Shown: positions 35,987 through 59,982 of the stretch, in pieces
How the letters are laid out: every line of letters begins with the position of its first letter
How positions within the stretch are numbered: the stretch's first letter is position 1
Position numbers and translations under genes: made by a program
From: Dehalococcoidia bacterium
Lineage (GTDB): Bacteria > Chloroflexota > Dehalococcoidia > Bin125
DNA length: 64,000 bases
Direction of reading: 5' to 3'
Assembly (NCBI GenBank): GCA_022826965.1
Contig: JAJDTU010000009.1
Coordinates: forward strand, 62,001-126,000
The notes under the pieces: model-generated
What the model was told of the DNA's origin: nothing
Seen by the model: the letters and a program-made list of their open reading frames with translations, nothing else
Databases searched by the model: none

Positions 35987-38500
35987 TCAGCGAGCTTGCG
36001 CCTTTCTCGCCGCCACGTCGTCCATCGTGCCGCTGATCCCGCGCTCCACCAGCGACCGGTACTCGGCCTCCGTCATCCCCAGCTCCTGCGCGAACACCTC
36101 GTACGAGTGCTCGCCGACACAAGGCGATGGCCTCAGCTCGCGATCCTCCGCCCCGCTCAATCGCCACGGCGCCCCGGGCAACCACGACGGTCCGACCTCA
36201 GAATGCTCGACCGACTGGATGAACCCGCTTGCCAGGTAGTGTGCATCGGGCTCCGTGAACTGCTCGTAGGGCCGCGCAACCCGAGCCGCGTCAACGCCAA
36301 CAGCCAACAGCCGTCGTTCCACGTCCATCGAGGCTTGATCGGACGTCCAGTTCGTGATGACCTCGTCCAGCTGCCGTTCGTTGGCCTTGCGCGACGCCAC
36401 GCTCGCGAACCGGGGATCCTCGGACAGATCCGCCCGGCCAACCTCCTCGCACAGCGCCTGCCACTCTGACTCGGAATGCACCGAGATCGCGACCCACTCA
36501 TCCTCCCCGGCACAGCCGTAGATGTTATGTGGAGCTCGCTGCCTGTCGAAGTTGCCGATCGGCACCGGAATCCGACCCGTGGCGTCGTACTCCACAATCG
36601 AATCCCCGACCACCACGCCCATCGCCTCCAGCATCGCCACGTCGATCCGCTGAGGCCCGTCCACTCGCTCGCGCCGGGCCAGCGCCGCCATAATCGCCGC
36701 CGCCATCGAGTAGCCGGAGATCGAGTCCGGATACAGCCCGCCCGTGTTCATGCCCGCATCACCCTCGTATCCGTGAATCGACGACAGACCCGACATCGGC
36801 TCGGTCGTCGCGCCGTTCGCCGGATACGCCGAAAACGGTCCCGTCGCGCCGTATCCCGAGATCGACGCGAGGATCACGTCCGACCGCTGCTCGGCCAGCG
36901 CTTCCAGCGTGATGCCCCAGCCCTCGAGCACGCCCGGCCGGAAGTTCTCGCAGATCACATCAAAGCTCGGCATCATTCGCCAGAAGATCTCCTTGCCTTC
37001 GTCGGTGCCCAGATCGAGCGTGATCCCCCGTTTGTTCAGGTTGACCGCGTTGTACACGCCCTGCAGATTCTCCGGATGCTGCGTCCTCGAGTCGTCCCGG
37101 ATCGCGTCCGGCACCCACGGCCGCAGCAGCCGCCAGATGTCCACCCGACGCAGCGCCTCAATCTGAACCACGTCCGCACCCAGGAACCCCAGCAGCTCCG
37201 TCCCAAACGTCCCGCTCCACGCCTGAGTAAACGTCAGCACCCGAACCCCATCCAGCGGCCCACGTCGGGTCCCGATGTCCTGCTCTTCCCCCGCTCCAGG
37301 CTGCCACTCTCCCCCCGCTCCCTGATCCATTTCTCCCCCCGCTCCGCGGGGGGAGATGTCACGCAGTGACAGAGGGGGGCTCGCCTCTGCAGAAACGGCG
37401 TCCAACCTTGGCGCCGCCGACCGCACCGACCAACTCGGCGGACTCATCGGATGCGGATCGCCTGACGCCCGAACTCGCTCGCCCTCCAGCTCCGTCTCGA
37501 CAATGAACCCCCGCGCCGCAAACTGGTCATTCTCAACCAGCTCGGCAATCGTCTGCATCACACCGGAAATGCAACGTAACTGCGCCAGTCGGTGAAACAG
37601 CGGCCACTTCTCCATCTTCGGCAACTCACGAGCCACCCCGGCCATCACCGCCGACAGATCCTTCGAGTACCGCGCGTTGCGCGCCTGTAGGTCTTCGCGG
37701 GCGCCCTGTTCCGGCAGATTGAACAGCGCCATCGCCTCGGACCAGTTGTGCCAGTCACCGAATCCGAAGTTCATCCGGCCATCCGCCGCATCCCAGAGCG
37801 GTCCCGGCTCTCCCCGAGGCCGCCCGCCCGTGGCCCCCCGCGACCAGCCTGTGCCCTGGTAGATCGCGCTAATCGACCACGGATAGACGGTGTGCGTCAT
37901 CGCCTCCAGCTCGCGCACATCGACGAGCTCGGGCGCGTCGGACTCATACCGGCGATGCAAGGCCGCCGAGCCCGCGACGAAACCGGCCAGTCCGCCCATG
38001 TAACCGAATTGCCGCGACGGCAGCGTCAACGGCGATTCGTCCCTCAGGGCATTCACGTAGGCCCACCCGCAGCGCGCGTTCAGCGTCAGATTCCCACCCG
38101 GCGTGTCGGCCAAGGGACCGTCCAGTCCGTACGGAGTAACCGACAGATGCACCGCGTCACGTCGCATCGCGGCCAGCGGCCAACGCTGCAAGGCTTCACC
38201 GCTGTCGGTCGTGATCACCACGTCCGCGCGGGCAATCCAGGGTTCAGCTTCTCCAGGCTCGCCGATCACGGCCGACCGCTTGTTCCAGTTGATGTACGCG
38301 TGCAGTGCCGAACGCTCGACTCCCGAGACATCCCCCAGGAACGGCGCCTCATGACGCAGAGGATGACCCTCCGGCGGTTCCAGCATCACCACGTCCGCAC
38401 CATGGTCCCCAAACAACCGAGCCGCAAACGCCCCCGACATCCTCCGCGACAAATCCAGGACCACAAGTCCCTCGTAGGCGCTCACCAGAGTGTCGCTCAT
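35987..38500 (-). CDS. Two-domain family III CoA-transferase
   Basis: This 837-residue protein consists of two CaiB/BaiF domains in tandem (about 10-355 and 420-837). Each has the family fold and the Asp-containing segment that carries the acyl intermediate: VDVRELEAM in the first and IDVAMLEAMG in the second. The second domain starts GVRVLTFTQAWSGTFGTELLGFLGADVVQIE. The linker at about 358-415 is low in complexity. Its residues around 374-390 are an in-frame translation of a dispersed palindromic repeat (37332-37380), giving SPPLSLRDISPR. The fusion probably works as an intramolecular dimer; the CoA donor and acceptor are unknown. Confidence 0.85.
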   Translation of the reverse strand: MSDTLVSAYEGLVVLDLSRRMSGAFAARLFGDHGADVVMLEPPEGHPLRHEAPFLGDVSGVERSALHAYINWNKRSAVIGEPGEAEPWIARADVVITTDSGEALQRWPLAAMRRDAVHLSVTPYGLDGPLADTPGGNLTLNARCGWAYVNALRDESPLTLPSRQFGYMGGLAGFVAGSAALHRRYESDAPELVDVRELEAMTHTVYPWSISAIYQGTGWSRGATGGRPRGEPGPLWDAADGRMNFGFGDWHNWSEAMALFNLPEQGAREDLQARNARYSKDLSAVMAGVARELPKMEKWPLFHRLAQLRCISGVMQTIAELVENDQFAARGFIVETELEGERVRASGDPHPMSPPSWSVRSAAPRLDAVSAEASPPLSLRDISPRGAGGEMDQGAGGEWQPGAGEEQDIGTRRGPLDGVRVLTFTQAWSGTFGTELLGFLGADVVQIEALRRVDIWRLLRPWVPDAIRDDSRTQHPENLQGVYNAVNLNKRGITLDLGTDEGKEIFWRMMPSFDVICENFRPGVLEGWGITLEALAEQRSDVILASISGYGATGPFSAYPANGATTEPMSGLSSIHGYEGDAGMNTGGLYPDSISGYSMAAAIMAALARRERVDGPQRIDVAMLEAMGVVVGDSIVEYDATGRIPVPIGNFDRQRAPHNIYGCAGEDEWVAISVHSESEWQALCEEVGRADLSEDPRFASVASRKANERQLDEVITNWTSDQASMDVERRLLAVGVDAARVARPYEQFTEPDAHYLASGFIQSVEHSEVGPSWLPGAPWRLSGAEDRELRPSPCVGEHSYEVFAQELGMTEAEYRSLVERGISGTMDDVAARKAQAR
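37332..37380 (-). repeat. R1 palindromic repeat, copy 1 (inside a gene)
   Basis: Read on the minus strand it has a C-run with TCTGTCAC-TGC-GTGAC, then a CTCCCCCCGC-GGA-GCGGGGGGAG hairpin. It lies inside the CoA-transferase linker and is translated in frame without a stop. Confidence 0.85.
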
Positions 38501-38528
38501 GGCAATCTCACAAGGTCGCCTTCTGATC

Positions 38529-38561
38529 CCCTCTCCCTCTGGGAGAGGGTTAGCGTGAGGG
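38529..38561 (-). repeat. R2 palindromic repeat upstream of GMC gene
   Basis: CCCTCTCCC and GGGAGAGGG form a 9-bp stem with a short loop, followed by TTAGCGTGAGGG. This is the reverse orientation of the copy at 61103-61138. Confidence 0.75.
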
Positions 38562-38671
38562 TTCCCGGCCCGGCAGGGGACACGGGGTTCAGGTGAGGGT
38601 TCTGCTCTGCGTCACGTTATCGGATGATCTTCCAACGCTGACCTATCCTCTGCCGACAGGTGGAGGACGCA

Positions 38672-40204
38672 ATGACGACCTACGACGACATCATCATCGG
38701 CGCCGGATCCGCCGGAGCCGTGATCGCCGCTCGACTCTCCGAAGACCCCAACCGCCGCGTACTCCTGCTCGAGGCGGGACCCGACTACACCCGCGTCGAG
38801 GACATGCCCCGCGACCTGCTCAAGCCCTGGGTCTCCTGGCGCGATCACGACTGGGGTTTCAAGGCCAACGCCCGACACGGGCGCGAGTTCCCCCTGCACC
38901 GCGGCAAGGTCATGGGCGGCTCCTCCGCCGTCAACGGCACCATCGCGCTGCGCGGCGTGCCCGGAGACTTCGCGTCCTGGGTCGCCCTCGGTTGCGACGA
39001 CTGGGCCTTCGAGGATGTGCTCCCCTACTACCGACGGCTGGAATCCGATCCCGAAGGCGGCGACTTCCACGGCCAGTCCGGCCCCATCCCGATCGAACGC
39101 GAGCCCGAAGCGAACTGGCAGCCCCTGCAACGCGCCTTCTACGACGCCTGTCGCGACAGCGGCTTCGACGATGTCTGGGACCACAATCTGCCCGACGCCA
39201 CCGGTGTCGGACCCTGGCCCCGCAACCGCCGCGACGGCAATCGCATCTCCACCAACATCGCCTACCTGCTCGCCATCCGCGACCGCGAGAACCTGACCAT
39301 CCGCCACGGCGTGCTGGTCGACCGACTCAGCTTCGACGACGTCCAGGGCGATGTGCGCGTCAACGGCGTGGTGCTCAGCGATGGCGAAGAGATACGAGGC
39401 GAACGGGTTTGCCTCTCGGCCGGGTCGGCCGTCTCGCCGGCGATCCTGCTGCGCAGCGGCATCGGCCCCGCCGAAAAGCTCTCGCCCCACGGCATCACCC
39501 AGCGGATCCCCCTGCCTGGGGTCGGCGAGAACCTGATCGACCACTTCGGCACGGGCGTCCAGGCATTTCCGAAGCCGGAAGTGATCCACGATCCCGATAT
39601 CGTCACCGAGATCGGTGTGCGCTACACCGCCCCCGGTTCCAACCAGTTCAACGACATGCAGATCGCCATCTCAACAATCTGGGACGAAGACCAGGTGCGC
39701 GGCCTCACCGAAGCGCCGCGCCAGCATCCCTCCTTCGGCATCGGCGCTGTAATCCAGCGCCCATACTCGCGAGGCTCCGTCACGCTCCGTTCCACCGACC
39801 CGGCCGAGCAGCCCCAGCTCGACATGAACTACGCCTCCCATCCCGAGGACCTGCGCCGCCTCATGGACGGCGCACGCCTCTGCTGGCAGCTCATGCACTC
39901 CGACGAGATCATGCCCTTCGTCGACCGCGTCATCGCCCCGCGAGCCGCTGTGATGGAATCCGACAACGCCCTCGCCGACTACATCCGCCGCACCACCTCG
40001 ACCACCTGGCACATCTGCGGAACTGCAAAGATGGGCCCCGCAACCGACCCCCTCGCCGTCACCGATCAACAAGGTCGAGTCCACCAGGTGGAAAACCTCA
40101 GGGTCGCCGACGCCGCAATCATGCCCGACATCGTCAGTTGCAACACCAACCTCACCACCATCATGATCGGCGAACGAATCGCCGAATCACTCATGGAAAA
40201 CTAG
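38672..40204 (+). CDS. GMC-family FAD oxidoreductase
   Basis: This 510-residue flavoenzyme belongs to the glucose-methanol-choline family. The FAD site is DDIIIGAGSAGAVIAARLSE, followed by LLLEAGPDY. HRGKVMGGSSAVNGTIALRG is GMC signature 1 and LSAGSAVSPAILLRSGIGPAE is signature 2. The active-site His is in TTWHICGTAKMG and the partner Asn in SCNTNLTTIMIGERIAE. Choline dehydrogenase-like alcohol oxidation is likely, but the substrate is unknown. The ATG at 38672 has GGAGG 5 bases upstream and is preferred over a GTG four codons earlier. Confidence 0.93.
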   Translation: MTTYDDIIIGAGSAGAVIAARLSEDPNRRVLLLEAGPDYTRVEDMPRDLLKPWVSWRDHDWGFKANARHGREFPLHRGKVMGGSSAVNGTIALRGVPGDFASWVALGCDDWAFEDVLPYYRRLESDPEGGDFHGQSGPIPIEREPEANWQPLQRAFYDACRDSGFDDVWDHNLPDATGVGPWPRNRRDGNRISTNIAYLLAIRDRENLTIRHGVLVDRLSFDDVQGDVRVNGVVLSDGEEIRGERVCLSAGSAVSPAILLRSGIGPAEKLSPHGITQRIPLPGVGENLIDHFGTGVQAFPKPEVIHDPDIVTEIGVRYTAPGSNQFNDMQIAISTIWDEDQVRGLTEAPRQHPSFGIGAVIQRPYSRGSVTLRSTDPAEQPQLDMNYASHPEDLRRLMDGARLCWQLMHSDEIMPFVDRVIAPRAAVMESDNALADYIRRTTSTTWHICGTAKMGPATDPLAVTDQQGRVHQVENLRVADAAIMPDIVSCNTNLTTIMIGERIAESLMEN

Positions 40205-40277
40205 CCCGCTCAGATCCCCTCTCCCGGAGGAGACCTGCGCGCAAACCAACAAAGTCGGCCCGGTGCCGTTCAAAGTC

Positions 40278-40297
40278 GGCACCGCGCAGGCGGGGCC
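40278..40297 (+). repeat. R3 palindromic repeat, degenerate copy
   Basis: GGCACCGC-GCAG-GCGGGGCC is an 8-bp stem with one mismatch, between the GMC gene and the small protein gene. It is related to copies at 40660, 40872 and 50145. Confidence 0.6.
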
Positions 40298-40363
40298 CCG
40301 CCACCCACCTGATACCGGGCCGGCCCCTCCGCCAACCACAACACTTATACCGTACGTCCGTTC

Positions 40364-40372
40364 TGATACGAT
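40364..40372 (+). promoter_or_regulatory. Possible extended -10 of small protein gene A
   Basis: TGATACGAT resembles an extended -10 element and lies 20 bases before the ATG at 40393. The same 9-mer precedes the hydrolase gene at 54791. Confidence 0.35.
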
Positions 40373-40392
40373 CGCCTTCAAAGGAGCCGATC

Positions 40393-40779
40393 ATGCCAAA
40401 CCCATTCCACTACCGAACCCACATCAACCAGCTCTGGCGGACCGTCAACGGACCCAACCCTGGCTACATCCGACTCCGCGCACTCGACGCACTGGCTCGC
40501 GATCTCATCCCCGGCCGCCCCCGCTACGCCATCGCCCAGCAAATGCTCAACGCCGTCGACGCCTACGAGTACGCCCGCCACCTCCTCCGAAACCTCTACG
40601 ACGGCCCCAACCAACCCGACCCCGGAAACCTCGAAGTCGCCGCCGCGCTACTCAAAGTCGCCCCCGCGAAGGCGGGGGCCCCTTCCGACGCCTCCCTCTC
40701 CCTCCCCCTCCCTCCAGGAGAGGGTTCCGTTGCCATCACCGAGGAAGAACCACGTGACGAGGGCGACGACCCCTTGTAG
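40393..40779 (+). CDS. Uncharacterised small protein, paralogue A
   Basis: This 128-residue protein belongs to no family I recognise. It is clearly paralogous to the product at 50114-50443: both start MPNP(F/Y)H(Y/F)R, share LWRT.N...PGYIRL.ALDA.AR.L and end in DDPL. The N-terminal 75 residues look helical, with several Arg and Tyr. The C-terminal third includes in-frame translations of two dispersed palindromes (APAKAGA and LPLPPGEG). AAGGAG lies 6 bases before the ATG. The 3' flank has a T-rich stretch also found after paralogue B. Confidence 0.7.
   Translation: MPNPFHYRTHINQLWRTVNGPNPGYIRLRALDALARDLIPGRPRYAIAQQMLNAVDAYEYARHLLRNLYDGPNQPDPGNLEVAAALLKVAPAKAGAPSDASLSLPLPPGEGSVAITEEEPRDEGDDPL
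40660..40679 (+). repeat. R3 palindromic repeat inside small protein gene A
   Basis: GCCCCCGC-GAAG-GCGGGGGC is a perfect 8-bp stem with a GAAG loop. It is translated in frame as part of VAPAKAGA. Confidence 0.8.
40692..40724 (+). repeat. R2-like degenerate repeat inside small protein gene A
   Basis: A pyrimidine-rich run with CCCTCCCTCC and GGAGAGGG resembles the R2 repeats but is imperfect. It gives the LPLPPGEG stretch of the protein. Confidence 0.45.
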
Positions 40780-40792
40780 TCCCCATCTCCTC

Positions 40793-40820
40793 TATTTTTC
40801 GCCCGCGTTTTTTTTGGAAG
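40793..40820 (+). terminator. T-rich 3' flank of small protein gene A
   Basis: TATTTTTCGCCCGCG followed by eight T lies just after the stop. An equivalent T-rich stretch (six T, CCCGAGCG, seven T) follows paralogue B on the minus strand. It may act as a terminator, although no strong stem precedes it. Confidence 0.4.
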
Positions 40821-40871
40821 GCGCCGAACCCCGACCCTCAGCCCCGCCGTGCCCGCTCCACGGCCACAGTC

Positions 40872-40891
40872 GGCCCCGCGCAGGCGGGGCC
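40872..40891 (+). repeat. R3 palindromic repeat, GCAG-loop copy
   Basis: GGCCCCGC-GCAG-GCGGGGCC is a perfect 8-bp stem. Compared with the 40660 copy, the second base pair is changed on both sides (C-G to G-C). Confidence 0.75.
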
Positions 40892-40947
40892 CCGCCGCAG
40901 ACCGGGAGCAACACCCCCGAATGCTGACCGGAGATGCCGCAATCAGC

Positions 40948-42645
40948 TCAGCCAAATCCCGACTTCTGCGGCCGCTGCAGGACCACCGATCTGCCGCTCG
41001 GCGCGAACTCACGCGCGCCATTCGCCACCACCCCGTTCGAGGAACCTGCAGGCATCGCCGCCACCGACGGTCGCTCCACCGGCTGCCCGCCCTCCCACTG
41101 CATCTGCGTCTGACGTTGGCGCTTTGGCACCAGGATCCAGCCGACCACTCCGGAGATCAGTGCGAAGATGATGCCGAAGCGCATCGTGTCCTTGATCGCC
41201 TCGACGAACGACTCCCGCAGGACGAGTTGTGTCGGTCCAAGGACGGCCTGGTCCAGAGTGGGCAGCACTTGCTGCGCCGCGCCAATCCCGGTGGCGAGGA
41301 TGTCGACCGAGTCCTCGGCGATACCGAGCGGCGTCAGCCCCGACGTCACCCCGGAGGAATACACCGCCGCCGCGAAGGAACCCAGGATTGCGATCGCCAG
41401 CGTGCCGCCCAACTGCCGGCCGGCATTGTTCACCGCCGACGCCTTCCCCGCCAGGTCGACCGGCACCGACGCCATCGCCGTATCGGTCGTGGCGGGCATG
41501 TGCATCGCCCCGCCCATCCCCAGGAAGGCCAAACCCAGCCCGATCATCCAGTAGGGCGTGTCGACGCCGAGGATGAAGCTGAACAGCAGCAATGCCCCGC
41601 CGCCGTGGACGGCGGGCGCCCAGAAGAGCATCAGCCGCGGTCCCAGCCTGGGCAACAGCTTGGCCGCGACCGGCGCGAAGATCATCATCGCCAGCGCCAG
41701 CGGCATCAGGCGCGCGCCGCTCTCCGACGCGGACATCCCTTGCACGAGCTGGAAGAACTGCGGCATGTAGAACATCACGCCCATCAGGGCGAACATGATG
41801 AAGAACATGCCGACCATCGAGCCGGTGAAATCGCGCTGCTTGAAGAACGCCATCGGCAACAACGGTTGGTCGGTGCGCCGCTCGATCACGATGAACAGCA
41901 CCGCCGAGACGATCGCGACCGCGAACGAGCCAACGATTAGCGGGTCGGTCCAGCCCTTCTGAATGCCCTCGATGATCGCAAAGACGATCGCGATCATCGC
42001 GATCGTCCCCGTGATCGCCCCAGGCACGTCGAGCTTCGTGTGCATCTGCGATCGCGACTCCGGCACGGCGGCCATGCCGGCCATGCAGAGGGCCGCGATC
42101 GGCGCCGGAACCCAGAACACGCCCGCCCAACCGATCAGATCGACCAGGACGCCGCCCACCAGTGGTCCGAAGGCCATCCCGAAGCCCATCGCCCCGGCCC
42201 AGATCCCGATCGCGCGGCCGCGCTCTTCACGCGGGAACACGGCCGTCAGGATCGACAGCGTCTGCGGGATCACCAACGCTCCGCCCAGCCCTTGCAGTCC
42301 GCGTCCGACGATCAGGAAGTTGGCGTCGGGCGAGAACGCCACCGCGATCGATGCAGCGACGAAGATCGCCATGCCCGCGATCAAAATCTTGCGGCGGCCG
42401 AAACGGTCGCCGAGCGCACCGGCGAGCAGCAGCAACCCGCCGAAGATCACCATGTAGGCGTCGGCGACCCAGAGCGACTGCGACTCCGACATCTCGAAGG
42501 CCCGCTTGATCGCCGGCAACGCCGTGTTGATGATCGTGGCGTCGAGCTGGACCAGCATCTGCGATCCGGCCAGGACCAGCAGAATCACCCAGCGCCGAGG
42601 GGACGTCGACGCCCCCGCCGAAGCAGCGGGAGCCTGAGTCGTCAT
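40948..42645 (-). CDS. MFS drug/proton antiporter, EmrB/QacA type
   Basis: This 565-residue protein has 14 predicted membrane segments and the DHA2 hallmarks: QLDATIINTALPAI in helix 1, GDRFGRRKI in the loop after helix 2, and GRGLQGLGGALVIPQTLSILTAVFPREERGRAIGIW. It probably exports lipophilic compounds. The C-terminal 60 residues are hydrophilic. It overlaps the DUF35 gene as ATGA, so the two may work on one pathway. Confidence 0.9.
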   Translation of the reverse strand: MTTQAPAASAGASTSPRRWVILLVLAGSQMLVQLDATIINTALPAIKRAFEMSESQSLWVADAYMVIFGGLLLLAGALGDRFGRRKILIAGMAIFVAASIAVAFSPDANFLIVGRGLQGLGGALVIPQTLSILTAVFPREERGRAIGIWAGAMGFGMAFGPLVGGVLVDLIGWAGVFWVPAPIAALCMAGMAAVPESRSQMHTKLDVPGAITGTIAMIAIVFAIIEGIQKGWTDPLIVGSFAVAIVSAVLFIVIERRTDQPLLPMAFFKQRDFTGSMVGMFFIMFALMGVMFYMPQFFQLVQGMSASESGARLMPLALAMMIFAPVAAKLLPRLGPRLMLFWAPAVHGGGALLLFSFILGVDTPYWMIGLGLAFLGMGGAMHMPATTDTAMASVPVDLAGKASAVNNAGRQLGGTLAIAILGSFAAAVYSSGVTSGLTPLGIAEDSVDILATGIGAAQQVLPTLDQAVLGPTQLVLRESFVEAIKDTMRFGIIFALISGVVGWILVPKRQRQTQMQWEGGQPVERPSVAAMPAGSSNGVVANGAREFAPSGRSVVLQRPQKSGFG

Positions 42646-43109: not shown

Positions 43110-43152
43110 AGCGCGAGAGTAGCGCGTTGCCTGACTAGTACGCTGACTCGGC

Positions 43153-44172: not shown

Positions 44173-44179
44173 TTGCGAC

Positions 44180-50113: not shown

Positions 50114-50443
50114 TTACAAGGGGTCGTCGTCTTCGTCGGGTTCGGCCCCCGCCTTCGCGGGGGCGACTTCGGCGTTGAGGGGACCCTGACCCCGGCCCTC
50201 TCCCAGAGGGAGAGGGGGTAAGAGGGAGGGTTGGTCGTGGAGGTGGCGGAGTTTGTGCTGGGCGACTTCGTCGGGGTCGGTGGCGAGGTACATCTTGAGG
50301 TTTTGGCGGGCCTTGTCGGTGGGTCGGTAGAGCGCTCGGGCGACAGCGTCGAGGGCGTTGAGTCGGATGTAGCCGGGGCGGGAGCTGTTGGCGGTTCGCC
50401 AGAGTCGGTCGATGCGGGCTCGGAAGTGGTAGGGGTTGGGCAT
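50114..50443 (-). CDS. Uncharacterised small protein, paralogue B
   Basis: This 109-residue paralogue of the product at 40393-40779 has no family I recognise. The N-terminal 70 residues align without large gaps. The C-terminal part again contains PLPLGEG and APAKAGA stretches encoded by palindromes, but in reverse order compared with paralogue A. It ends DEDDDPL. AGGAG lies 7 bases before the ATG. Both copies sit in the repeat-rich accessory region on opposite strands. Confidence 0.7.
   Translation of the reverse strand: MPNPYHFRARIDRLWRTANSSRPGYIRLNALDAVARALYRPTDKARQNLKMYLATDPDEVAQHKLRHLHDQPSLLPPLPLGEGRGQGPLNAEVAPAKAGAEPDEDDDPL
50145..50164 (-). repeat. R3 palindromic repeat inside small protein gene B
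   Basis: It has a perfect 8-bp stem, the same sequence as the 40660 copy when read on the minus strand. It is translated in the same frame as VAPAKAGA. Confidence 0.8.
50180..50216 (-). repeat. R2 palindromic repeat inside small protein gene B
   Basis: CCCTCTCCC-AGA-GGGAGAGGG forms a perfect 9-bp stem. It encodes the PLPLGEG region of paralogue B. Confidence 0.7.
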
Positions 50444-50520
50444 GGTTGAGCTCCTGGGTGAGGTATGGACGTATGTTCTGATAGTAGTGGGTTCGGTTGG
50501 GTTGTGGGAGGAATGGTGTG

Positions 50521-50576
50521 CCCCCCTCTGTCACTACGTGACATCTCCCCCCGCCTGACGGGGGGGGGGGGAGAGG
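50521..50576 (+). repeat. R1 palindromic repeat, copy 2
   Basis: C-run, GTCAC-TAC-GTGAC, then CTCCCCCCGCC and a G-run of twelve. It lies between small protein gene B and the VWA gene. Confidence 0.8.
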
Positions 50577-50587
50577 GGAAGGGAGGG

Positions 50588-50623
50588 CCCTCACCCTGGC
50601 CCTCTCCCTCGGGGAGAGGGGAC
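50588..50623 (+). repeat. R2 palindromic repeat next to R1 copy 2
   Basis: CCCTCACCCTGG followed by CCCTCTCCC-TC-GGGGAGAGGG. It is directly downstream of R1 copy 2 and upstream of the VWA gene stop. Confidence 0.7.
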
Positions 50624-50659
50624 CGGAAGGGAGAGGGCCTTAGGGCGAGAGGGGCGGTG

Positions 50660-52525: not shown

Positions 52526-52652
52526 GTGGTCCTCCTGACCGACTGATTCGGGGCGGCAGATTGACGACCGGCTGTCGCCCCGTTGGAGGGTTAGACGATG
52601 TAAAGCGGGATATAGTTCCCGGATCGCGACGTGGAGTGAGGCGGGCGGGGAG

Positions 52653-52704
52653 CCCCCCTCTGTCCCTACGGGACATCTCCCCCCGCCTGACGGCGGGGGG
52701 AGAA
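52653..52704 (+). repeat. R1 palindromic repeat, copy 3
   Basis: C-run, GTCCC-TAC-GGGAC, then CTCCCCCCGCC-TGAC-GGCGGGGGGAG. Compared with copy 2 the fourth stem pair is changed on both sides (A-T to C-G). Confidence 0.85.
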
Positions 52705-52786
52705 AGGGAACGGGGTGAGAGAGGGGAAGGGAGCGTTCGCCTATCATTTGGCCAACGAAACAACCTGTAGATGAAATGAGGTCATC

Positions 52787-53602
52787 ATGGCCAGCGCACC
52801 AACTCGGGTACATGTGGTGACCGGTGGGTTTCCGCCGGGGCAGCATGGTGGGCATGACATGGACTTTGCGCGGCTGCGGCTGCTCGACATGCTGTATTCG
52901 GACGGGAATGTTCGGGCGACGACCGGCAACGATTTCACCGACATGTGGAAGTGGCTGCCGGTGACGGACGTGTTGATCACCTACACGGCCGGCCCGTATG
53001 CCGACGACCCGCAGAATGAGATCCTGCGCGACTGGATCGGCAACGGCGGACACTGGGTCGGCCTGCACGGGACGTCGGGCGGCAAGGCTGCCCGCATGGG
53101 CGAGGGCAAGCGCGCGATGGTGAAGATGGAGCACCACGAGACGCTGGGCGGTTTCTTCATCAACCACCCGCCGATCAAGCGCTTCACGGTCGACGTGAAG
53201 AGCGTGGACTCGCCGATCCTCGAGGGTCTGCCGGAGCAGTTCGATGTGATCGACGAGCCGTACATGATCGAGATCACGGATCGCCCCAACACCGACATCC
53301 TGCTGACGGCGCCGATCGGTCCGGACAACTACCCGGACTTTGGCTTCGACTACGAAGAGGACACGGCGCTTGAGGCGGACGGCATCACGCGGGTGTTCGG
53401 CTACACGCGCGGCATCGGTGAGGGCGGGGTCTGCTATATCGCGCTGGGTCACTGCCACTCGCCGCTGACGAACTCGCAGCCGTTCGTCGAGGAGAACGCT
53501 CGGGACGAGAACGGCGAGATGCCGAGGGTCCTGCGTTTCACCTGGGAGACCGAGGAGTACGGTCGGCTGTTGAGTAACAGCCTGAACTGGGCTCGGGGCT
53601 GA
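52787..53602 (+). CDS. ThuA-like domain protein
   Basis: This 271-residue protein matches the ThuA/trehalose-utilisation class I glutamine amidotransferase-like fold: VHVVTGGFPPGQHGGHDMDF, DVLITYTAGPYADDPQNEILRDWIGNGGHWVGLHGTSG and RVFGYTRGIGEGGVCYIALGHCHSP. No signal peptide is seen. The exact reaction is unknown for most members. GAGG lies 5 bases before the ATG, and a TATCAT -10-like element is at 52742-52747. Confidence 0.82.
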   Translation: MASAPTRVHVVTGGFPPGQHGGHDMDFARLRLLDMLYSDGNVRATTGNDFTDMWKWLPVTDVLITYTAGPYADDPQNEILRDWIGNGGHWVGLHGTSGGKAARMGEGKRAMVKMEHHETLGGFFINHPPIKRFTVDVKSVDSPILEGLPEQFDVIDEPYMIEITDRPNTDILLTAPIGPDNYPDFGFDYEEDTALEADGITRVFGYTRGIGEGGVCYIALGHCHSPLTNSQPFVEENARDENGEMPRVLRFTWETEEYGRLLSNSLNWARG

Positions 53603-53626
53603 CGCGAGGAGCCACCCGCAACCTAA

Positions 53627-53648
53627 CCCTCTCCCTGAAGGGAGAGGG
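53627..53648 (+). repeat. R2 palindromic repeat after ThuA gene
   Basis: CCCTCTCCCT-GA-AGGGAGAGGG, a 10-bp perfect stem just after the stop. It could double as a transcript end. Confidence 0.7.
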
Positions 53649-53701
53649 AAATTGGGGCGGCCCTTGTGGCCGCCCCTTTGCATTCGGCGACGTTGCGGGA
53701 G

Positions 53702-53746
53702 CCCCCCTCTGCCTTCGGCATCTCCCCCCGCTGCGCGGGGGGAGAG
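53702..53746 (+). repeat. R1 palindromic repeat, copy 4
   Basis: C-run, TGCC-TTC-GGCA in place of the GTCNC stem, then CTCCCCCCGC-TGC-GCGGGGGGAG. The first stem is different in sequence but still pairs. Confidence 0.8.
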
Positions 53747-53768
53747 CGGAATCGAGTGAGCCGTGGGG

Positions 53769-54791
53769 TTATTCGCCGGCGAGGGGTTCGGGGAGGACTT
53801 CGAGGAGGCCGCCGAAGATATCGGCTTCTTCGTCGAGGGGGGTTGCTTCGACCGGGGTGACGCTGTGGTGGACTCGGGGGCGTTGGCTGAAGAGTTCGTT
53901 GAAGATTGACTCGGCGTGCTCGATGAAGCCGAGGGAACCGACGCCCTCGACGTAGATCGGGCGGCACTGGGGCAGCTCGGAGGCGATTCGCTCGCCCATC
54001 TGGATCGGGTGCGATTCGTCGAGCATTCCGTGCCAGAGCATGACTGGGAAGTCGACGTCGCGCAGTGCGAAGCCCCATGGCTCGAGGTGATGCCGGGCCT
54101 CGTCGCCGGCGGCGGCCGGACCCTGGCGGAAGGCTTCGCGCAGGTCGGTGATGCGGTTCGTCCTGGTGGGTTCGGAGCCGAGGACTGCGCCGTCGACGGG
54201 GGGCATGCGCTTAATCTGCTCGGCGACGACGCGATCGGGGCGCTTCTGCACGGAGCGGCCATAGCCACGCATCCAGAGTGAAGCGAGGCGCTGCGACTTG
54301 AGGAAGAGCGTGTAGATCAGGCGCCACTCGTAGGACATGCCCTCGAGCACGTCGCCTGAGTCGATGACTCCAAGACCGGAGATCGAGGCGACGCGGTGGA
54401 GCCGTTCGGGGATGCGCAGGGCACAGGCCAGGGTGTAGGGCAGGCCGGCGGAGATGCCGGCGACAGAGAACTTCTCGAGTTCGAGGTAGTCGGCGAGCTG
54501 GCGCAGGTCGGAGGGCCAATCGAGGATGGTGCGTCCGGGCAGGGGATCGGAATAGCCGAATCCGGGCCGCTCGGGTGCAATCAGGCGGACGCCCGAGCCT
54601 GCGGCGCCGTCGGCCATGACGGCGGCAGCGACTCGGGAGGAGGGCAGTCCGTGGTGGAAGAAGATCGGTTCGCCGGCGGGATCGCCGTACTCGGTCCAGC
54701 TCAGGGCTCGACCGTCGGACAGCCGGACCAGACTATGTGGCGGTTCCGGATCGTCGTCGGTGGCGCGGCTGGAGACCTCAGGGGTTGTCAT
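53769..54791 (-). CDS. Alpha/beta hydrolase lacking the usual catalytic His
   Basis: This 340-residue protein has the alpha/beta hydrolase core: oxyanion segment FFHHGLPSSR, nucleophile Ser114 in AGISAGLPY and acid Asp258 in LWHGMLDESHP. Where the base His is expected (GxGH before LEHPE) it has GVGSLGFIEHAE, so Ser286 replaces it, with His292 six residues on. It may be inactive, or use another His. The ATG at 54791 has no ribosome-binding site, but TGATACGAT lies 8 bases upstream, which would suit a leaderless transcript. Confidence 0.8.
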   Translation of the reverse strand: MTTPEVSSRATDDDPEPPHSLVRLSDGRALSWTEYGDPAGEPIFFHHGLPSSRVAAAVMADGAAGSGVRLIAPERPGFGYSDPLPGRTILDWPSDLRQLADYLELEKFSVAGISAGLPYTLACALRIPERLHRVASISGLGVIDSGDVLEGMSYEWRLIYTLFLKSQRLASLWMRGYGRSVQKRPDRVVAEQIKRMPPVDGAVLGSEPTRTNRITDLREAFRQGPAAAGDEARHHLEPWGFALRDVDFPVMLWHGMLDESHPIQMGERIASELPQCRPIYVEGVGSLGFIEHAESIFNELFSQRPRVHHSVTPVEATPLDEEADIFGGLLEVLPEPLAGE

Positions 54792-54799
54792 GTAGTCGG

Positions 54800-54808
54800 A
54801 TCGTATCA
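54800..54808 (-). promoter_or_regulatory. Possible extended -10 for leaderless hydrolase gene
   Basis: TGATACGAT on the minus strand ends 8 bases before the ATG. The same 9-mer precedes small protein gene A. Confidence 0.35.
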
Positions 54809-54832
54809 CTCGCGGTAAGAAAGAGCCGAGGG

Positions 54833-54884
54833 CCCCCCCTCTGTCTCTACGAGACATCTCCCCCCGCTCGGAGCGGGGGGAGAA
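54833..54884 (+). repeat. R1 palindromic repeat, copy 5
   Basis: C-run, GTCTC-TAC-GAGAC, then a CTCCCCCCGCTC hairpin. The fourth stem pair is T-A here. Confidence 0.85.
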
Positions 54885-54903
54885 ACGGGGGCGGGGACGG
54901 GGA

Positions 54904-56652
54904 TCAATCCGTAGGTTCGGAGACGAGGAGTTCGGCTTCGACGTCGTCGGCGAGGTTTTCGATGACGGGGGTTTCGCCGAGGCAGCCGTCCTCGACCTGC
55001 ATGTCGAAGGCGTCGGCGAAGTAGCGGTAGGACTGGTACTGGTCGCCGTACTTCATGTGACCGGCCGTGTGATGAGCGGCGGAGAGCAGGAGAGTGTTGC
55101 GCATCTCCGAGGTGGTGCGTCGGTAGTCCTCGAGCATGCAGAGGCCGATTTCCTGGTTGTGCGGGTCGTTGCCCTGCTTGGCGATGCCGTCGGCCAGGGT
55201 CTCGACGAGGGGGGCGTCGTCGTAGCCCTGCTTGAGGTAGTTCTCGACCCAGAACACGGACTGCTCAGAGTCGAGGGCGAGCATGGCCTCGTTGAGTTCG
55301 CCGAGGAGCTTGCCCTGCGTCATCGGCGGGGCGTCCTCGTCCATCGAGTAGCCGGCGAAGTAGGTGGCAGCGCCGCGGGTCTTGTTGCCCTTGGAGTTGG
55401 TCACCCAATGGGCGCACTGGTTGATGAAGTTGGCGGCGATGAAGAGCAGCTTGGTCTTGTGCGGGTGGTCGAAGTTCTCGTAGAACCAGCCGAGCATGTT
55501 GGTGTACTCGTAGCCGTGCTGGGGCATGGAGAAGTTGGCAGGCAGGCCGCACTCGAGCACGACGCGGGCGGCGGCGATCTGAATGGCGTCGAGGATCGAC
55601 TTGGGCGATCGACCGGCCTTGAGCAGCGCCACGATGTCCTCGATGTAGGACTCCTCGGGCTCGCGGATGATCGAGCGGATCAGGCCCTCGGCCTCGGGCG
55701 GGGAGAGCGGGATCTGGTTGGCGAAGAGTTCGATGTCGCGGGTCGAGGTCTGGGTCGCATTGAGCGAGGACGCGGGCGGCTCTTCCTCGAGGTGGTACAT
55801 CATGATCTGGCAGGCGGACTCGAAGAGCGAGTACCAACGCGGGCCGACGGCGATGTCGGGGACACCGGCGTAGAGCACGTGATGGGCGTTGTCCCAGCCG
55901 ATCGCGCGTCCGAGCTGAATGGTGCTGCGGGCGCGGAAGGACTTGTGGCCGGTCGTGTAGGAGCGGTTCCAGAACATTCGGTCCTGGACATCGATCAGGC
56001 CGGCGAACATGAGCTGGGCGAGGATTTCCTCGCGCCGCTCGGGGAACTTCTCCCAGAGACCGAGGAAGAGCGCGTACTCCTCGTTGACCTGTCCGTACTG
56101 GACGAGCGTGAGCCAGTCGTTGAGGCCTTCTTCGAGCGAGCCGTCGTAGTCGGCGGGCTGCTGATCGTCCCAGTGGGCGGCGGGCGGGGCGGGGCCGTCG
56201 GGGTACTTCTCGGGGTCGTAGGTGCGTCGGGAGTAGTGTCCGGGCATCCGGCCCTTGAGCTGGTTCCAGATGTCGAGGCCGGTGGGCACGTACCAGGCGG
56301 TCTGGCTGAGCGGCAGGTGACGCATCTCCTCGGAGACCATGTTCTGCAGACCGAGGGTGGCACGGGAGGAGAGCAGGCAGTGGTCGTTGTTGACGAAGCG
56401 GACGATGCCGGAGTCGATGCGCTGGTGGTAGGGCACGTGCGTGTAGGGAGCGTGGGCGCGGATCGTCTCGGAGAGGATCTCGGTCGTCGGACGGCCGTCT
56501 CTGATCAGGTCAAAGGCCTGGTGGAGCGCGGAGGTGTTGTCGCGTCCGACGATGGTCTCGCGATAGCGGTCGTAGGCGGCCGCGGTCTTGCGATCCATGT
56601 AGTCGGGGGACGAGCCGCTGTCGCCGGTACCGGATGTCTTGTGCAGGCCCAT
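54904..56652 (-). CDS. Unrecognised 582-residue protein
   Basis: I do not recognise this family. The protein is soluble-looking, rich in aromatic residues and His in the N-terminal 150 residues (HAPYTHVPYHQRI, TAWYVPTGLDIWNQLKG), and helical later on, with a GWFYENFDHPHKTKLLFIAANFINQCAHW stretch near 400. No signal peptide or membrane segment is evident. The base composition matches the neighbours. It stands beside a HEPN gene and opposite the DUF1800/DUF1501 pair. A metal-dependent oxidase is one possibility because of the many His and Tyr, but this is only a guess. Confidence 0.7.
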   Translation of the reverse strand: MGLHKTSGTGDSGSSPDYMDRKTAAAYDRYRETIVGRDNTSALHQAFDLIRDGRPTTEILSETIRAHAPYTHVPYHQRIDSGIVRFVNNDHCLLSSRATLGLQNMVSEEMRHLPLSQTAWYVPTGLDIWNQLKGRMPGHYSRRTYDPEKYPDGPAPPAAHWDDQQPADYDGSLEEGLNDWLTLVQYGQVNEEYALFLGLWEKFPERREEILAQLMFAGLIDVQDRMFWNRSYTTGHKSFRARSTIQLGRAIGWDNAHHVLYAGVPDIAVGPRWYSLFESACQIMMYHLEEEPPASSLNATQTSTRDIELFANQIPLSPPEAEGLIRSIIREPEESYIEDIVALLKAGRSPKSILDAIQIAAARVVLECGLPANFSMPQHGYEYTNMLGWFYENFDHPHKTKLLFIAANFINQCAHWVTNSKGNKTRGAATYFAGYSMDEDAPPMTQGKLLGELNEAMLALDSEQSVFWVENYLKQGYDDAPLVETLADGIAKQGNDPHNQEIGLCMLEDYRRTTSEMRNTLLLSAAHHTAGHMKYGDQYQSYRYFADAFDMQVEDGCLGETPVIENLADDVEAELLVSEPTD

Positions 56653-56721
56653 AGAGCGCTCCAGGCACTGAGTACGGAATTGCTGAAGTTGCTGCGCAGT
56701 ATAGCGACGGGTTGGAGCCGC

Positions 56722-57081
56722 TCAGTTGGAGAGAAGATTGAGTCGGCGGACGAACTCGTTGACCTCGTCGAGGCCGTCGGCGATCAGCTGCGGCGGCAGT
56801 TCGCCGTCGTAGAAGTTGTTGTGCAGACCATTGGCGACAAGAAACTGAGTACGCAGGGTCGCGTCGTCGGCTTCGTTTGCCAAGCGCCTCACGGCATCGA
56901 ACAGGTCACGGTGCGAGCTGTGACGCCAACCGCGTTCTTCAGCAGCCGCCTTGACCGAATGTGCGGCCGCTCCCCAACCCTTCTCGGCTGCTTGCAGCAG
57001 ATCACCATCAGCCAACGACGACCGAGCCTTGGCGAGGAAGGCCTGGGCCGTTTCGGTGTGGAAGTCTGCGCGTGTGGTCAT
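56722..57081 (-). CDS. PaREP1/HEPN-like protein
   Basis: This 119-residue helical protein matches the PaREP1 group of HEPN-like domains: AFLAKARSSLADGDLLQAAEKGWGAAAHSVKAAAEERGW, HRDLFDAVRRL and LHNNFYDGELPP. HEPN domains often act as RNases or in nucleotide-linked stress systems; the R-x(4-6)-H catalytic motif is not obvious here. No nucleotidyltransferase gene is next to it. Confidence 0.72.
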   Translation of the reverse strand: MTTRADFHTETAQAFLAKARSSLADGDLLQAAEKGWGAAAHSVKAAAEERGWRHSSHRDLFDAVRRLANEADDATLRTQFLVANGLHNNFYDGELPPQLIADGLDEVNEFVRRLNLLSN

Positions 57082-57249
57082 GGGTCAACGATATTCGGTG
57101 GCAGTTGGTTCAGCAATCCGGGCGAAAATGGTACGCACACGTACTCAGTTTCAAGCCTCGCATGTCCTATATTGCGCTTGTAGAGCAATCGCGCGGGCTT
57201 GACCGATTTTTCGTACCCGCGCACGGACGTTTCTGGAGAGGTGCCATAC

Positions 57250-58647
57250 ATGTCTGACGACCAACGAGCGCTGGTCGCCCACCTGATGCGTCGCGCCGGG
57301 GCCGGCGTGACGCCTGCCGAGCTGGACGAGCTGGCGAAGCGACCATATTCCGACATTGTCGAGGAACTGATCAATCCGGCCCTGGCCGAGGACGACGACG
57401 ATCTGGTCTTCCGCTACTTCCCGGCGTTGGCCAACTCCGATACTCCGTGGCCGTGGAGCGGCCGCTGGATCTACTGGATGGTCAACTCGGAGTCGCCGCT
57501 GCGGGAGAAGATGGCGCTGTTCTGGCACCACGTCTTTGCGACGGCCTGGTTCAAGTCGGAGCACGGCCCGTCGATGCCGGTGCATATCCAGATGTTCCGC
57601 GAGCACGGTCTGGCCAATATGCGGGTGTTACTGACCGAACTGTCGCGCGACCCGTTGATGATCTTCTGGCTCGATAACAGCGAGTCGGTCGTGGGTGCGC
57701 CGAACGAGAACTACGGGCGCGAGCTGCTTGAGCTGTTCTCGATGGGCGTGGGCAACTACACCGAGGACGACATCAAGGCGGCGGCGTACAGCTTTACCGG
57801 CTGGACGTTCGAGCAGCCGATTCCGCTCTACCCGCACGGCGGATACCCGGCGCGATTCGTGTACCGGGACGATCTGCACGACCACTCGGAGAAGGAGTTC
57901 CTCGGCCACACGGGCAACTTCAACGGCGAGGACATCATCGACATCATCGTCCAGCAGCCGGCCACCGGCCGCTTTATCGGGCGACACCTGTACAACTTCT
58001 TCGTCAAGGACGAGCCGGGGGTTTCGGCCTGGTCGGTGACGGACCCGGGCAATCCCGAGGCTGTGGCCGAGCTGGCGTCGGCGTTCGCGGAGTCGAACGG
58101 CGACCTTCAGGCGGTGATGCGCGTGCTGTTCAACGCGGAGTGGTTCAAAGAGGCCCGCTACGAGCGCGTGAAGTGTCCGGCCGAGTGGGTTGCGGGCGCA
58201 TACAAGCTGTCGGGCAAGCTGGCGATGCCGCAGGCCGAGATGTGGAATCTGCACATGACGATGGGCGCCATGGGGCAGAGCCTGATGGACCCGCCCTCGG
58301 TTGAAGGCTGGCACACGGGCAAGGAATGGATCGACGGCGGCACGCTGATGGAGCGGATCAACTTCGCCTCGAAGCTGGTCTCCGATCCGTCGACGCCGGG
58401 CGTGCAGGAACTGGTCAGCCGCTTGCAGGAGATCGGGGCCAGCAGCCCGGAGGAGCTGGTCAACGCGACGCTCGACTTCGCCGGACCGCTGGAGGTTTCC
58501 GACAACACCCGGGCGGCGCTGCTTGAAGCGGCGTCTGCGGGCGGCGATCTGTCGTTCGACGGCGACGAGGCGGCCGAGGAAGCGGGCCAGCGGGCCGCCC
58601 AGGCGCTGCGCCTGGTGATCGCTTCCCCCGAGTACCAGTTCGCCTAG
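57250..58647 (+). CDS. DUF1800 family protein
   Basis: This 465-residue protein matches DUF1800: HLMRRAGAGVTPAELDELA, SPLREKMALFWHHVFATAW, GAPNENYGRELLELFSMGVGNYTEDDIKAAAYSFTGWTF, and PPSVEGWHTGKEWIDGGTLMER. The function is unknown; such genes nearly always precede a DUF1501 gene, as here. No signal peptide is visible, although many members are exported. The ATG at 57250 has GAGAGG 9 bases upstream; a TTG at 57199 is open but unsupported. Confidence 0.88.
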   Translation: MSDDQRALVAHLMRRAGAGVTPAELDELAKRPYSDIVEELINPALAEDDDDLVFRYFPALANSDTPWPWSGRWIYWMVNSESPLREKMALFWHHVFATAWFKSEHGPSMPVHIQMFREHGLANMRVLLTELSRDPLMIFWLDNSESVVGAPNENYGRELLELFSMGVGNYTEDDIKAAAYSFTGWTFEQPIPLYPHGGYPARFVYRDDLHDHSEKEFLGHTGNFNGEDIIDIIVQQPATGRFIGRHLYNFFVKDEPGVSAWSVTDPGNPEAVAELASAFAESNGDLQAVMRVLFNAEWFKEARYERVKCPAEWVAGAYKLSGKLAMPQAEMWNLHMTMGAMGQSLMDPPSVEGWHTGKEWIDGGTLMERINFASKLVSDPSTPGVQELVSRLQEIGASSPEELVNATLDFAGPLEVSDNTRAALLEAASAGGDLSFDGDEAAEEAGQRAAQALRLVIASPEYQFA

Positions 58648-58657
58648 GAAGCCCACA

Positions 58658-58679
58658 CCCTCTCCCAGCGGGAGATGGG
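58658..58679 (+). repeat. R2 palindromic repeat, degenerate
   Basis: CCCTCTCCC-AGC-GGGAGATGGG between the DUF1800 and DUF1501 genes. The stem has one mismatch. Confidence 0.55.
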
Positions 58680-58710
58680 ACCAAACCAAGCAACGGAACG
58701 GAACGAGTCA

Positions 58711-59874
58711 ATGAGCGGCAACGGACACAGCGAGAAGAAGGACCCCGTCCTCGTTATCGTCCAGCTTTCGGGCGGCAACGACTTCATGAACACCCTGGTG
58801 CCGTACACCCAGGGTCACTACTACGACGCGCGGCCGCTGGTCGGCGTCCCTCAGGACGAGGTGATGCCGATCAACGATGAGCTGGGCTTCAACCCTGCCG
58901 CCGAGCGCATGAAGAAGATGTACGACAACGGCGATGTCGCGGTGATCCAGGGCGTCGGATATCCGAACGCTTCACGCTCGCACTTCCGCGGCATGGACAT
59001 CATGCACACGTGCGAGCCGGACCGGATCTCGACCGAGGGCTGGGTGGCGAAGCTGATCCAGCGGCTCGACCCGGACTCGGAGAATCCGCTGACCGGAATC
59101 AACATCGGCCGCGGCCTGCCGCGCGCGATGGCGATGGCGGGTGTGACGGCGACCTCGGTCGGCGACCTCGACAACTATGGTCTGATGCCCGACATCCAGG
59201 CCGAGGAAGACCGCAACCGCGACCTCGAGATCTTCAAGCGGATGTACACGCCGGCGATCGGCGCGGGCATGGTCATGGACTATCTGCGCCAGACCGGGAT
59301 CGACTCGCTGGCCGGCGCCGACATGCTGGCTCCGGTTCCGGGCATGTACGAATCATCGGTCGAGTACGGCTCGAACCCGATCGCGAAGGCGCTGCGCGAC
59401 GTGGCCCGGATCCACACGGCGGGTCTGGGCGCCCGGGTCTTCTACACGAACCACATCGGCTACGACACACACTCGCACCAGCCGCCGGTTCACCCGGGGC
59501 TGCTGCGCGACATGACGGGCGCGCTGGACGACTTCCTGACCGACCTGCGCGAGCACGACGCGGCCGAAGAGGTCGCGGTTCTCGTCTTCACCGAGTTCGG
59601 GCGGCGGATGAAGGACAACGGGTCGGGCACCGACCACGGTTCCGGCGGCGGCTCCTTCATCATCGGCGAGCACGTCGAGGGCGGTCTCTACGCCGAGTAC
59701 CCGTCGGTCGACCCGAAGGACTGGCTGAACGGCGAGGACCTGCAGCACACGATCGACTTCCGCGGGATCTACGGCACGATGCTCGAGCAGTGGATGGGCG
59801 TCGAGCCGGAGGAGATCGTGGTCGGCGAGTTCGAGCAGGTGCGCCCGTTCAAGCAGACGATGCTGTCGAACTAG
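58711..59874 (+). CDS. DUF1501 family protein
   Basis: This 387-residue protein is a sulfatase-like DUF1501 member: LVIVQLSGGNDFMNTLVPY, GVGYPNASRSHFRGMDIMHT, and VLVFTEFGRRMKDNGSGTDHGSGGGSFIIGEHV with probable metal ligands. Many DUF1501 proteins carry a Tat signal; none is seen here, so it may be cytoplasmic together with its DUF1800 partner. A longer frame upstream starts inside a repeat and is not preferred. Confidence 0.88.
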   Translation: MSGNGHSEKKDPVLVIVQLSGGNDFMNTLVPYTQGHYYDARPLVGVPQDEVMPINDELGFNPAAERMKKMYDNGDVAVIQGVGYPNASRSHFRGMDIMHTCEPDRISTEGWVAKLIQRLDPDSENPLTGINIGRGLPRAMAMAGVTATSVGDLDNYGLMPDIQAEEDRNRDLEIFKRMYTPAIGAGMVMDYLRQTGIDSLAGADMLAPVPGMYESSVEYGSNPIAKALRDVARIHTAGLGARVFYTNHIGYDTHSHQPPVHPGLLRDMTGALDDFLTDLREHDAAEEVAVLVFTEFGRRMKDNGSGTDHGSGGGSFIIGEHVEGGLYAEYPSVDPKDWLNGEDLQHTIDFRGIYGTMLEQWMGVEPEEIVVGEFEQVRPFKQTMLSN

Positions 59875-59877
59875 GAG

Positions 59878-59911
59878 ACCCTCACCCTCTCTCTCTCTCT
59901 GAGGGAGAGGG
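59878..59911 (+). repeat. R2 palindromic repeat after DUF1501 gene
   Basis: CCCTCACCCTCTCTCTCTCTCTGAGGGAGAGGG, with an expanded CT run in the loop. Confidence 0.6.
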
Positions 59912-59941
59912 ATCGGAGTGGCGAGAACCGTCGGCAGTGGA

Positions 59942-59982
59942 CCCCCTCAGTCGCTGCGCGACAGCTCCCCCAGAGGGGGAGC
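59942..59982 (+). repeat. R1 palindromic repeat, copy 6
   Basis: CCCCCTCA, GTCGC-TGC-GCGAC, then GCTCCCCC-AGA-GGGGGAGC. It has the same two-hairpin plan as copies 1-5, with G-C at the fourth stem pair. Confidence 0.8.

Follow-up and report, generated by a model that had tools for sequence, protein, structure and literature searches.

The window analyzed here is a 64-kb stretch (C12:62001-126000) of the 3.0-Mb genome, in 14 contigs, of a Dehalococcoidia bacterium (G000 below). It carries six copies of a short structured repeat, R1, which we relate to triplex-type repeats of other bacteria and to small genes of the DUF559 family that accompany them. The six positions given in the initial annotation were confirmed, with shifts of a base or two at most. 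When class II intrastrand-triplex motifs were sought with a generic finder, not built from the letters of R1, the 64-kb window yielded these six copies and three BoxC-like elements and nothing before 37332, in line with the earlier remark that the first 37 kb hold no copy. A relaxed R1 pattern gave one extra match in the window, at 57417, which looks like chance. The types T/T and A/G in the list refer to two positions, X and X', described further on.

37332..37380, minus (C-rich strand): R1 copy 1, T/T type, mini-hairpin GTCACTGCGTGAC
50521..50576, plus: R1 copy 2, T/T type, mini-hairpin GTCACTACGTGAC, with a G arm longer than the C arm
52653..52704, plus: R1 copy 3, T/T type, mini-hairpin GTCCCTACGGGAC, in the gap between a divergent vWA-protein gene and ThuA-like gene
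52653..52661, plus: predicted third-strand tract of copy 3, CCCCCCTCT, the mirror of the arm
52662..52674, plus: mini-hairpin linker of copy 3
52676..52684, plus: pyrimidine arm of the large hairpin of copy 3, TCTCCCCCC
52695..52703, plus: purine arm of the large hairpin of copy 3, GGGGGGAGA
53702..53746, plus: R1 copy 4, T/T type, short mini-hairpin TGCC-TTC-GGCA, in the convergent gap between ThuA-like and abhydrolase genes
54833..54884, plus: R1 copy 5, T/T type, mini-hairpin GTCTCTACGAGAC
59942..59982, plus: R1 copy 6, A/G type, mini-hairpin GTCGCTGCGCGAC
38529..38561, plus (G-rich strand): BoxC-like element, from the generic finder
50588..50637, plus: BoxC-like element or elements directly 3' of copy 2, with a C-strand form at 50588-50608 and a G-strand form at 50600-50637
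61104..61136, minus (G-rich strand): BoxC-like element, from the generic finder

On the C-rich strand, the order of R1 is 5' tract CCCCCCTCT, mini-hairpin (with the outer form GTC..GAC or GCC..GGC), A, arm TCTCCCCCC, loop, and arm GGGGGGAGA. The 5' tract mirrors the hairpin arm, the arrangement of a third strand. On the G-rich strand, the order becomes pyrimidine arm, loop, purine arm, hairpin linker, and third strand, and by the finder all six window copies fit a pyrimidine arm, a purine arm, and an antiparallel third strand on one strand. The initial description of two hairpins behind a C-run was incomplete, as the C-run, misread as a leader, would act as a third strand and the small hairpin as its linker.

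The stem pairs first reported (GTCAC/GTGAC and the others) proved correct on rereading. Covariation was judged by the finder and by direct counts in place of a covariance model. Among 79 copies with a 13-nt mini-hairpin (19 of them distinct, from stretches of three genus members), the variable fourth stem base was Watson-Crick paired in 78, as C-G in 27, A-T in 26, G-C in 19, and T-A in 6, with one T-G; 2000 shuffles gave a mean of 23.2 and a maximum of 40 of 79. These paired changes support the earlier suggestion that selection acts on a folded shape.

The third strand was examined in copies of the own genome that had been collected by their arm side only, which amounted to 57 distinct matches, 52 of them with a mini-hairpin. 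In 45 of these 52 arm-selected copies (own-genome stretches) the exact mirror 9-mer stood upstream, and single mirror positions agreed in 47 to 52 of them. A Watson-Crick partner for the C-run downstream, hinted at by GGGGAGAGGGG in some own copies, was rejected: among 158 elements of named genomes whose G arm could be read, one had GAGGG, the partner of CCCTC, within 14 nt past that arm. In 184 elements, the free position next to the mini-hairpin (X) and the one that partners it (X') were T/T in 79, A/G in 66, C/C in 32, and otherwise in 7, states that on the G-rich strand correspond to the triads A.AT, T.CG, and G.GC, respectively. With G.GC, A.AT, T.AT, and T.CG counted as fits in 151 distinct elements, the purine motif accounted for 144/151 at X, 147/150 at position -1, and 134/150 at position -2, while the maxima reached by shuffles were 91, 106, and 103, and those of within-group shuffles 117, 125, and 117. 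At the same positions, the pyrimidine motif accounted for 80/151, 143/150, and 100/150. The preference for the purine motif exists at X because T.CG was counted and at -2 because T.AT was; T.AT is listed for this motif in the pertinent part of PMC4666352. According to the introduction of that paper, RNA does not form triplexes of the purine motif, which favors DNA for R1. Covariation supports the view that the three-strand plan of R1 is under selection, and between the two forms named at the outset, RNA or extruded DNA, the covariation of C-run and large hairpin by purine-motif triads leans to single-stranded DNA.

The confinement of R1 to the right half is true of the window but nothing special, as copies occur genome-wide, with the arm core CATCTCCCCCCGC found 107 times in the 3.0 Mb and its reversed control 0 times. 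A looser R1 pattern gave 142 rows in the own genome, many elements being counted twice. Among relatives, 14 of the 15 genus members had R1 rows (7 to 250 each), and G007 had none. Rows were found in six of 46 genera sampled, one or two in each of the five other than the own genus. When one genome per species was scanned, at least 119 R1-like stretches emerged, and the relatives among the matches listed came from Clostridia, Bifidobacterium, Rhizobiales, other alphaproteobacteria, Bacteroidota, Planctomycetota, Chloroflexota, and others. When the letters of the repeat were searched in published papers, no title among the matches listed was that of a paper on bacterial repeats.

In a set of 323 kb (the window plus 20 stretches picked for the copies in them), 61 of 65 copies lay outside predicted genes, though 83% of the set is coding, and the types of intergenic gap hosting R1 followed gap length. 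Copy 1 of the window is one exception, in frame and without a stop, at codons 374-390 of an 837-codon open reading frame (35987-38500, minus), where it separates two CoA-transferase III domains exactly. This frame may represent a single fused gene whose linker is made from the repeat, or two genes with a lost stop. Upstream of copy 2, about 50234-50510, the window holds part of another dispersed repeat, which measures roughly 250-280 bp and has numerous genus copies at about 70-89% identity.

The convergent ThuA/abhydrolase site of copy 4 could be compared in part of the genus. R1 was present there in G000, G003, and G010, the spacer was 4-17 nt in G001, G004, and G013 (flanking gene 87-89% identical), and no R1 was seen in the longer spacers of G005, G007, and G009. 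Such presence and absence at one orthologous site supports fast change and probable movement of the repeat. The flanks differ too much for a target-site duplication of the kind left by miniature inverted-repeat transposable elements to be read. Inverted R1 pairs were found in G003 and G008, and in G010 (L250, G010:C4:370000-389999) short-stem plus and long-stem minus copies alternate about every 75 bp in an array around a DUF559 gene.

Orientation was strongly biased within the genus. In three species, 56/59, 27/28, and 37/41 single copies had their C-strand on whichever strand showed more G than C (G>C) at third codon positions, and agreement of the same copies with the majority gene strand was 22/59, 9/28, and 14/41. 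In the window, where this skew changes sign near 44 kb (about 43.5-45 kb), the single minus copy falls on the negative-skew side and the five plus copies on the positive side. BoxC elements were locked in 17/18 cases in the own genome and in all 10 with clear skew, of 17, in G009; none was found in the G010 stretches used for this count. The bias could come from entry by way of single strands at the replication fork, or from the loss of those copies in which the lagging-strand template carries the triplex strand; either cause would fit. We also observed that GC skew at third codon positions flips repeatedly, independently of gene strand, along the stretches seen of contigs C2, C4, and C12 of G000, for which many inversions or several origins are options.

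Single-domain DUF559 genes (PF04480) numbered 13 in nine of the 15 genus genomes. The gene surrounded by the G010 array is one of them (E 1.9e-39), and that of the own genome (C7:128426-128740), whose protein matches PF04480 above the cut-off (E 2e-42), is enclosed by an inverted R1 pair. R1 was near 10 of the 13 loci, and with the generic finder all 13 had a triplex-type element within 400 nt, eight of them on both sides. One of the two DUF559 genes of G007, the member that lacks R1, is bracketed by BoxC arrays. Among 30 DUF559 loci taken from R1-bearing named genomes, 23 had an element within 400 nt (both sides in 9). Element density per kb was 3.44 near versus 0.15 far at the genus loci and 1.69 versus 0.22 at the named loci, and one Markov shuffle per locus gave 0 elements. 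These genus and named counts are not blind: an initial flank test restricted to R1-like elements had placed them near 11 of the 30 named loci, and the flanks of the 19 misses and of four other loci were read by eye before the generic finder was written. Two further sets, fetched after the finder was written and not chosen for R1, gave an element at 21 of 28 DUF559 loci from sampled Chloroflexota (both sides in 17; 2.30 versus 0.11 per kb) and at 6 of 8 plasmid loci drawn from 43 hit records. As a control, with a fixed gene span as also used for uvrC, none of 17 small GIY-YIG genes had a triplex-type element within 400 nt.

The association was also visible at the level of genomes. DUF559 was found in 39 of 49 R1-bearing named genomes, a set that leaves out five already known to have it, versus 2 of 14 control genomes. 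It was present in eight of the 119 named R1 stretches, in seven with R1 within 300 nt by pattern. In Escherichia coli K-12, chosen for its DUF559 gene ycjD, ycjD is annotated as such and one BoxC lies 167 nt away; with 23 BoxC copies, any given gene would have one inside 400 nt by chance with a probability of about 0.6%. Of 10 stretches in IMG/VR contigs that fitted a DUF559 pattern, none was confirmed. As shown by gene context, DUF559 genes and predicted triplex-type repeats stay together in several phyla.

The DUF559 protein is a putative nuclease, for which an alignment of 30 proteins shows D, E, D, H, and R columns to be conserved and a solved relative, 3hrl, is named endonuclease-like. 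Passages of PMC1189080 and PMC12907096 place YcjD/DUF559 among the PD-(D/E)XK nucleases near Vsr, without a link to repeats. No paper joining DUF559 with repetitive extragenic palindromes (REPs), bacterial interspersed mosaic elements (BIMEs), or triplex terms was found among the matches listed, with subscription papers and preprints mostly outside the search; the sole listed match for palindromic repeat, endonuclease, and DUF559 together was a paper on CRISPR and type VI secretion, in which the term appeared once in the text matched. The link between DUF559 and the repeats is likely, although not proven, to be new to the literature.

Other observations concern the same family. The genes flanking the DUF559 unit were found in G001 and G009 with about 1.8-2.0 kb between them instead, and no boundary could be read. 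Weak DUF559 matches (E 1e-5 to 1e-7) fell in open frames of 1352-1945 codons in genus genomes (L264-L268), so the domain seems to occur in large proteins too. By eye, further triplex-type families appeared at DUF559 flanks (L271-L273, L280, L285, L276, L292); Brevundimonas has CCCCTCATCC-hairpin-ACCTTCTCCC and Caulobacter has CCTCTCACCC-hairpin-CCCTCCCTCTCTC, among others.

The small single-domain GIY-YIG genes of the genus had repeats of another kind.

L181-L191, L196-L199, L209, and L210: small single-domain GIY-YIG loci; the own copy, G000:C14:303229-303450, is L190

Palindromes of the CGTCATTCC type lay within 400 nt of 12 of these 17 loci, on both sides in 10, with a density of 3.90 per kb near versus 0.06 far; within the same distance there were none at 13 DUF559 and 11 uvrC loci. 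The CGTC palindrome pattern is post hoc, written after an earlier look. GIY-YIG had itself been considered as the partner of R1, from a GIY-YIG gene at an R1 site of G009, and was rejected, as none of the 17 genes was near triplex-type elements, their numbers do not follow R1 counts, and CGTC palindromes stand there instead. At the genus loci, each nuclease goes with its own repeat class. Small GIY-YIG genes are therefore candidate partners of the CGTC REPs, which in the relevant part of Di Nocera et al. 2013 (PMC3733652) are stated to have no dedicated transposase. Among the matches listed, no paper joined GIY-YIG with REPs or intergenic repeats, the GIY-YIG ones dealing with introns and genome editing.

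The closest known relatives of R1 are the BoxC/PIT/TMECO repeats, known since the 1990s and described without a mover or a settled function in the part of Holder et al. 2015 (PMC4666352) that concerns them. As given there, they share with R1 the class II plan, the G/C-rich letters, the intergenic location, the wide spread with lability between relatives, and inverted pairs of unlike types, the R1 arrays and pairs resembling the A+B pairs of E. coli BoxC. BoxC also adjoins copy 2 in the window. The stems of R1 (8-9) agree with the ITxF definition in that source (stems 6-15, loops 1-6 nt), but its hairpin linkers of 10-14 nt do not, and they mostly exceed the 0-10 nt of an earlier search. The letters of R1 differ from the TMECO consensus, so R1 is filed as a variant and not as BoxC, and whereas the same text reports no mobile-element partner for BoxC/PIT, R1 has DUF559 as a candidate. 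Compared with the REPtrons, which combine REP, REPIN, or BIME repeats with the REP-associated tyrosine transposase (RAYT) (sections of PMC3733652), R1 likewise consists of short structured intergenic repeats with inverted dimers and alternating arrays, and a small nuclease-type gene flanked by the repeat. It differs by having a PD-(D/E)XK nuclease as putative partner and no GTAG tag scheme; the tag was not seen in the R1 copies displayed, of which no count was made. The CGTC REPs (dRS3, RPE; same sections) are also small repeats without a known transposase, but they are simple palindromes, in this genus beside small GIY-YIG genes, not DUF559, and lack the three strands and linker hairpin of R1. 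The IS200/IS605 elements, for which PMC6006769 is a lead, act on hairpins of the lagging-strand template and use an HUH transposase, none of which is linked to R1 here.

Taking structure and gene context jointly, we consider it probable that R1 belongs to a REPtron-like system in which DUF559 would be the enzyme and R1 a non-autonomous form of a BoxC/PIT-type triplex repeat; covariation supports placing it as a subfamily of the BoxC/PIT class with a predicted hairpin as third-strand linker. When single stranded, the G-rich strand of R1 is predicted to fold into a class II (purine-motif) triple helix. DUF559 would recognize the folded strand and nick the DNA at the fold or next to it, after which a PIT-duf559-PIT unit would spread through repair or strand transfer. 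Solitary copies, inverted pairs, and alternating arrays would derive from this unit and be non-autonomous, standing to DUF559 as REPs and BIMEs stand to RAYT. The bias of the C-rich strand toward the G>C strand in this genus would be expected if entry or survival depended on the strand exposed at the replication fork.

Several results speak against this proposal. Regarding the triplex, triads at position -3 were not significant (62/150, shuffle maximum 64), and the A/G state (64/151) fits the purine motif only if T.CG, a tolerated triad that we did not find in print, is accepted. Parallel decoys were frequent in the finder output (84 versus 149), so the finder supports nearness and not strand geometry. 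Regarding movement, no clean empty site or target duplication was read at either the ThuA/abhydrolase or the DUF559 site, and the strand lock was not seen outside the genus (47/101 single copies from seven groups, genes being predicted by a crude caller), so that it was rejected as a general feature. Regarding the partner gene, PF04480 had no match in 6 of the 14 R1-bearing genus genomes, including the richest in R1, although drafts may hide some, nor in 10 of the 49 R1-bearing named genomes. By the finder, 7 of 30 named and 7 of 28 Chloroflexota DUF559 loci had no element, and 4 of 11 control uvrC genes did have one within 400 nt. In E. coli, the finder misses the imperfect BoxC at ycjD, and the PF04480 search had no match in the control genome of this species, though ycjD of MG1655 is named DUF559.

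The main rival, which we judge unlikely though well ahead of the others, takes DUF559 for a settler, a nuclease gene of homing or repair type that would enter, or persist between, pairs of triplex-type repeats moved by something else. The R1-bearing genus genomes that have no DUF559 would fit it, as would the Caulobacter DUF559 protein VsrA, proposed as a mismatch-repair nuclease in PMC12907096, and DUF559 genes that keep the same site in several genus members while the R1 types around them differ. However, different triplex families flank DUF559 in different lineages, as co-transmission predicts, and within the genus the pairing is specific, the small GIY-YIG genes having CGTC palindromes in place of triplex-type neighbors. 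That R1 is an ordinary REP moved by RAYT, a Y1/HUH transposase, appears the least credible reading: it would explain the BIME-like inverted pairs and alternating arrays and the strand lock in the genus, but PF01797 had no match in 14 of the 15 genus genomes and one weak match in G008, in a search that matched 5 of 14 control genomes, and RAYT is thus disfavored as the mover.

The two other readings concern the fold itself, and both seem improbable. The mirror tract might be a relic shared by descent, with no third-strand pairing, given that the elements are related, that shuffles leave some descent in place, and that G-rich sequence produces many decoys. The partner rule nevertheless holds at three free positions, in several groups, and under within-group shuffles, and the order of pyrimidine arm, purine arm, and third strand is preserved in DUF559-flanking elements whose sequence differs. 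We give slightly less credit still to an action of R1 as RNA, with two transcript hairpins stabilizing, terminating, or regulating mRNA. Although the mini-stem covaries and many copies are near genes, the kind of gap occupied follows gap length, and where the flanking genes are co-directional their coding strand is the C-strand in 14 cases and the other strand in 29. The tract states A/G and A/T misfit a pyrimidine-motif RNA triplex, Rfam at gathering scores found only a tRNA in the window, and an intrinsic terminator was rejected, with a four-T run within 25 nt after the hairpin in 0/6 window copies.

Returning to the REPtron-like system with DUF559, its pairing with triplex-type repeats suggests how these long-unexplained repeats may spread. 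The recurrence of the partner gene in several phyla, E. coli K-12 included, makes the question testable in a laboratory strain. The covariation described above would provide evidence, drawn from natural sequences, that selection maintains a purine-motif triple helix of DNA. We lean slightly to doubt on a broader idea, in which a transposase-free class of REP-like systems would have single-domain endonucleases that recognize their own structured repeats (DUF559 with triplex repeats, GIY-YIG with CGTC palindromes), the triplex of an exposed strand would be the signal, and the BoxC repeats of E. coli may be the residue of a YcjD-type activity.

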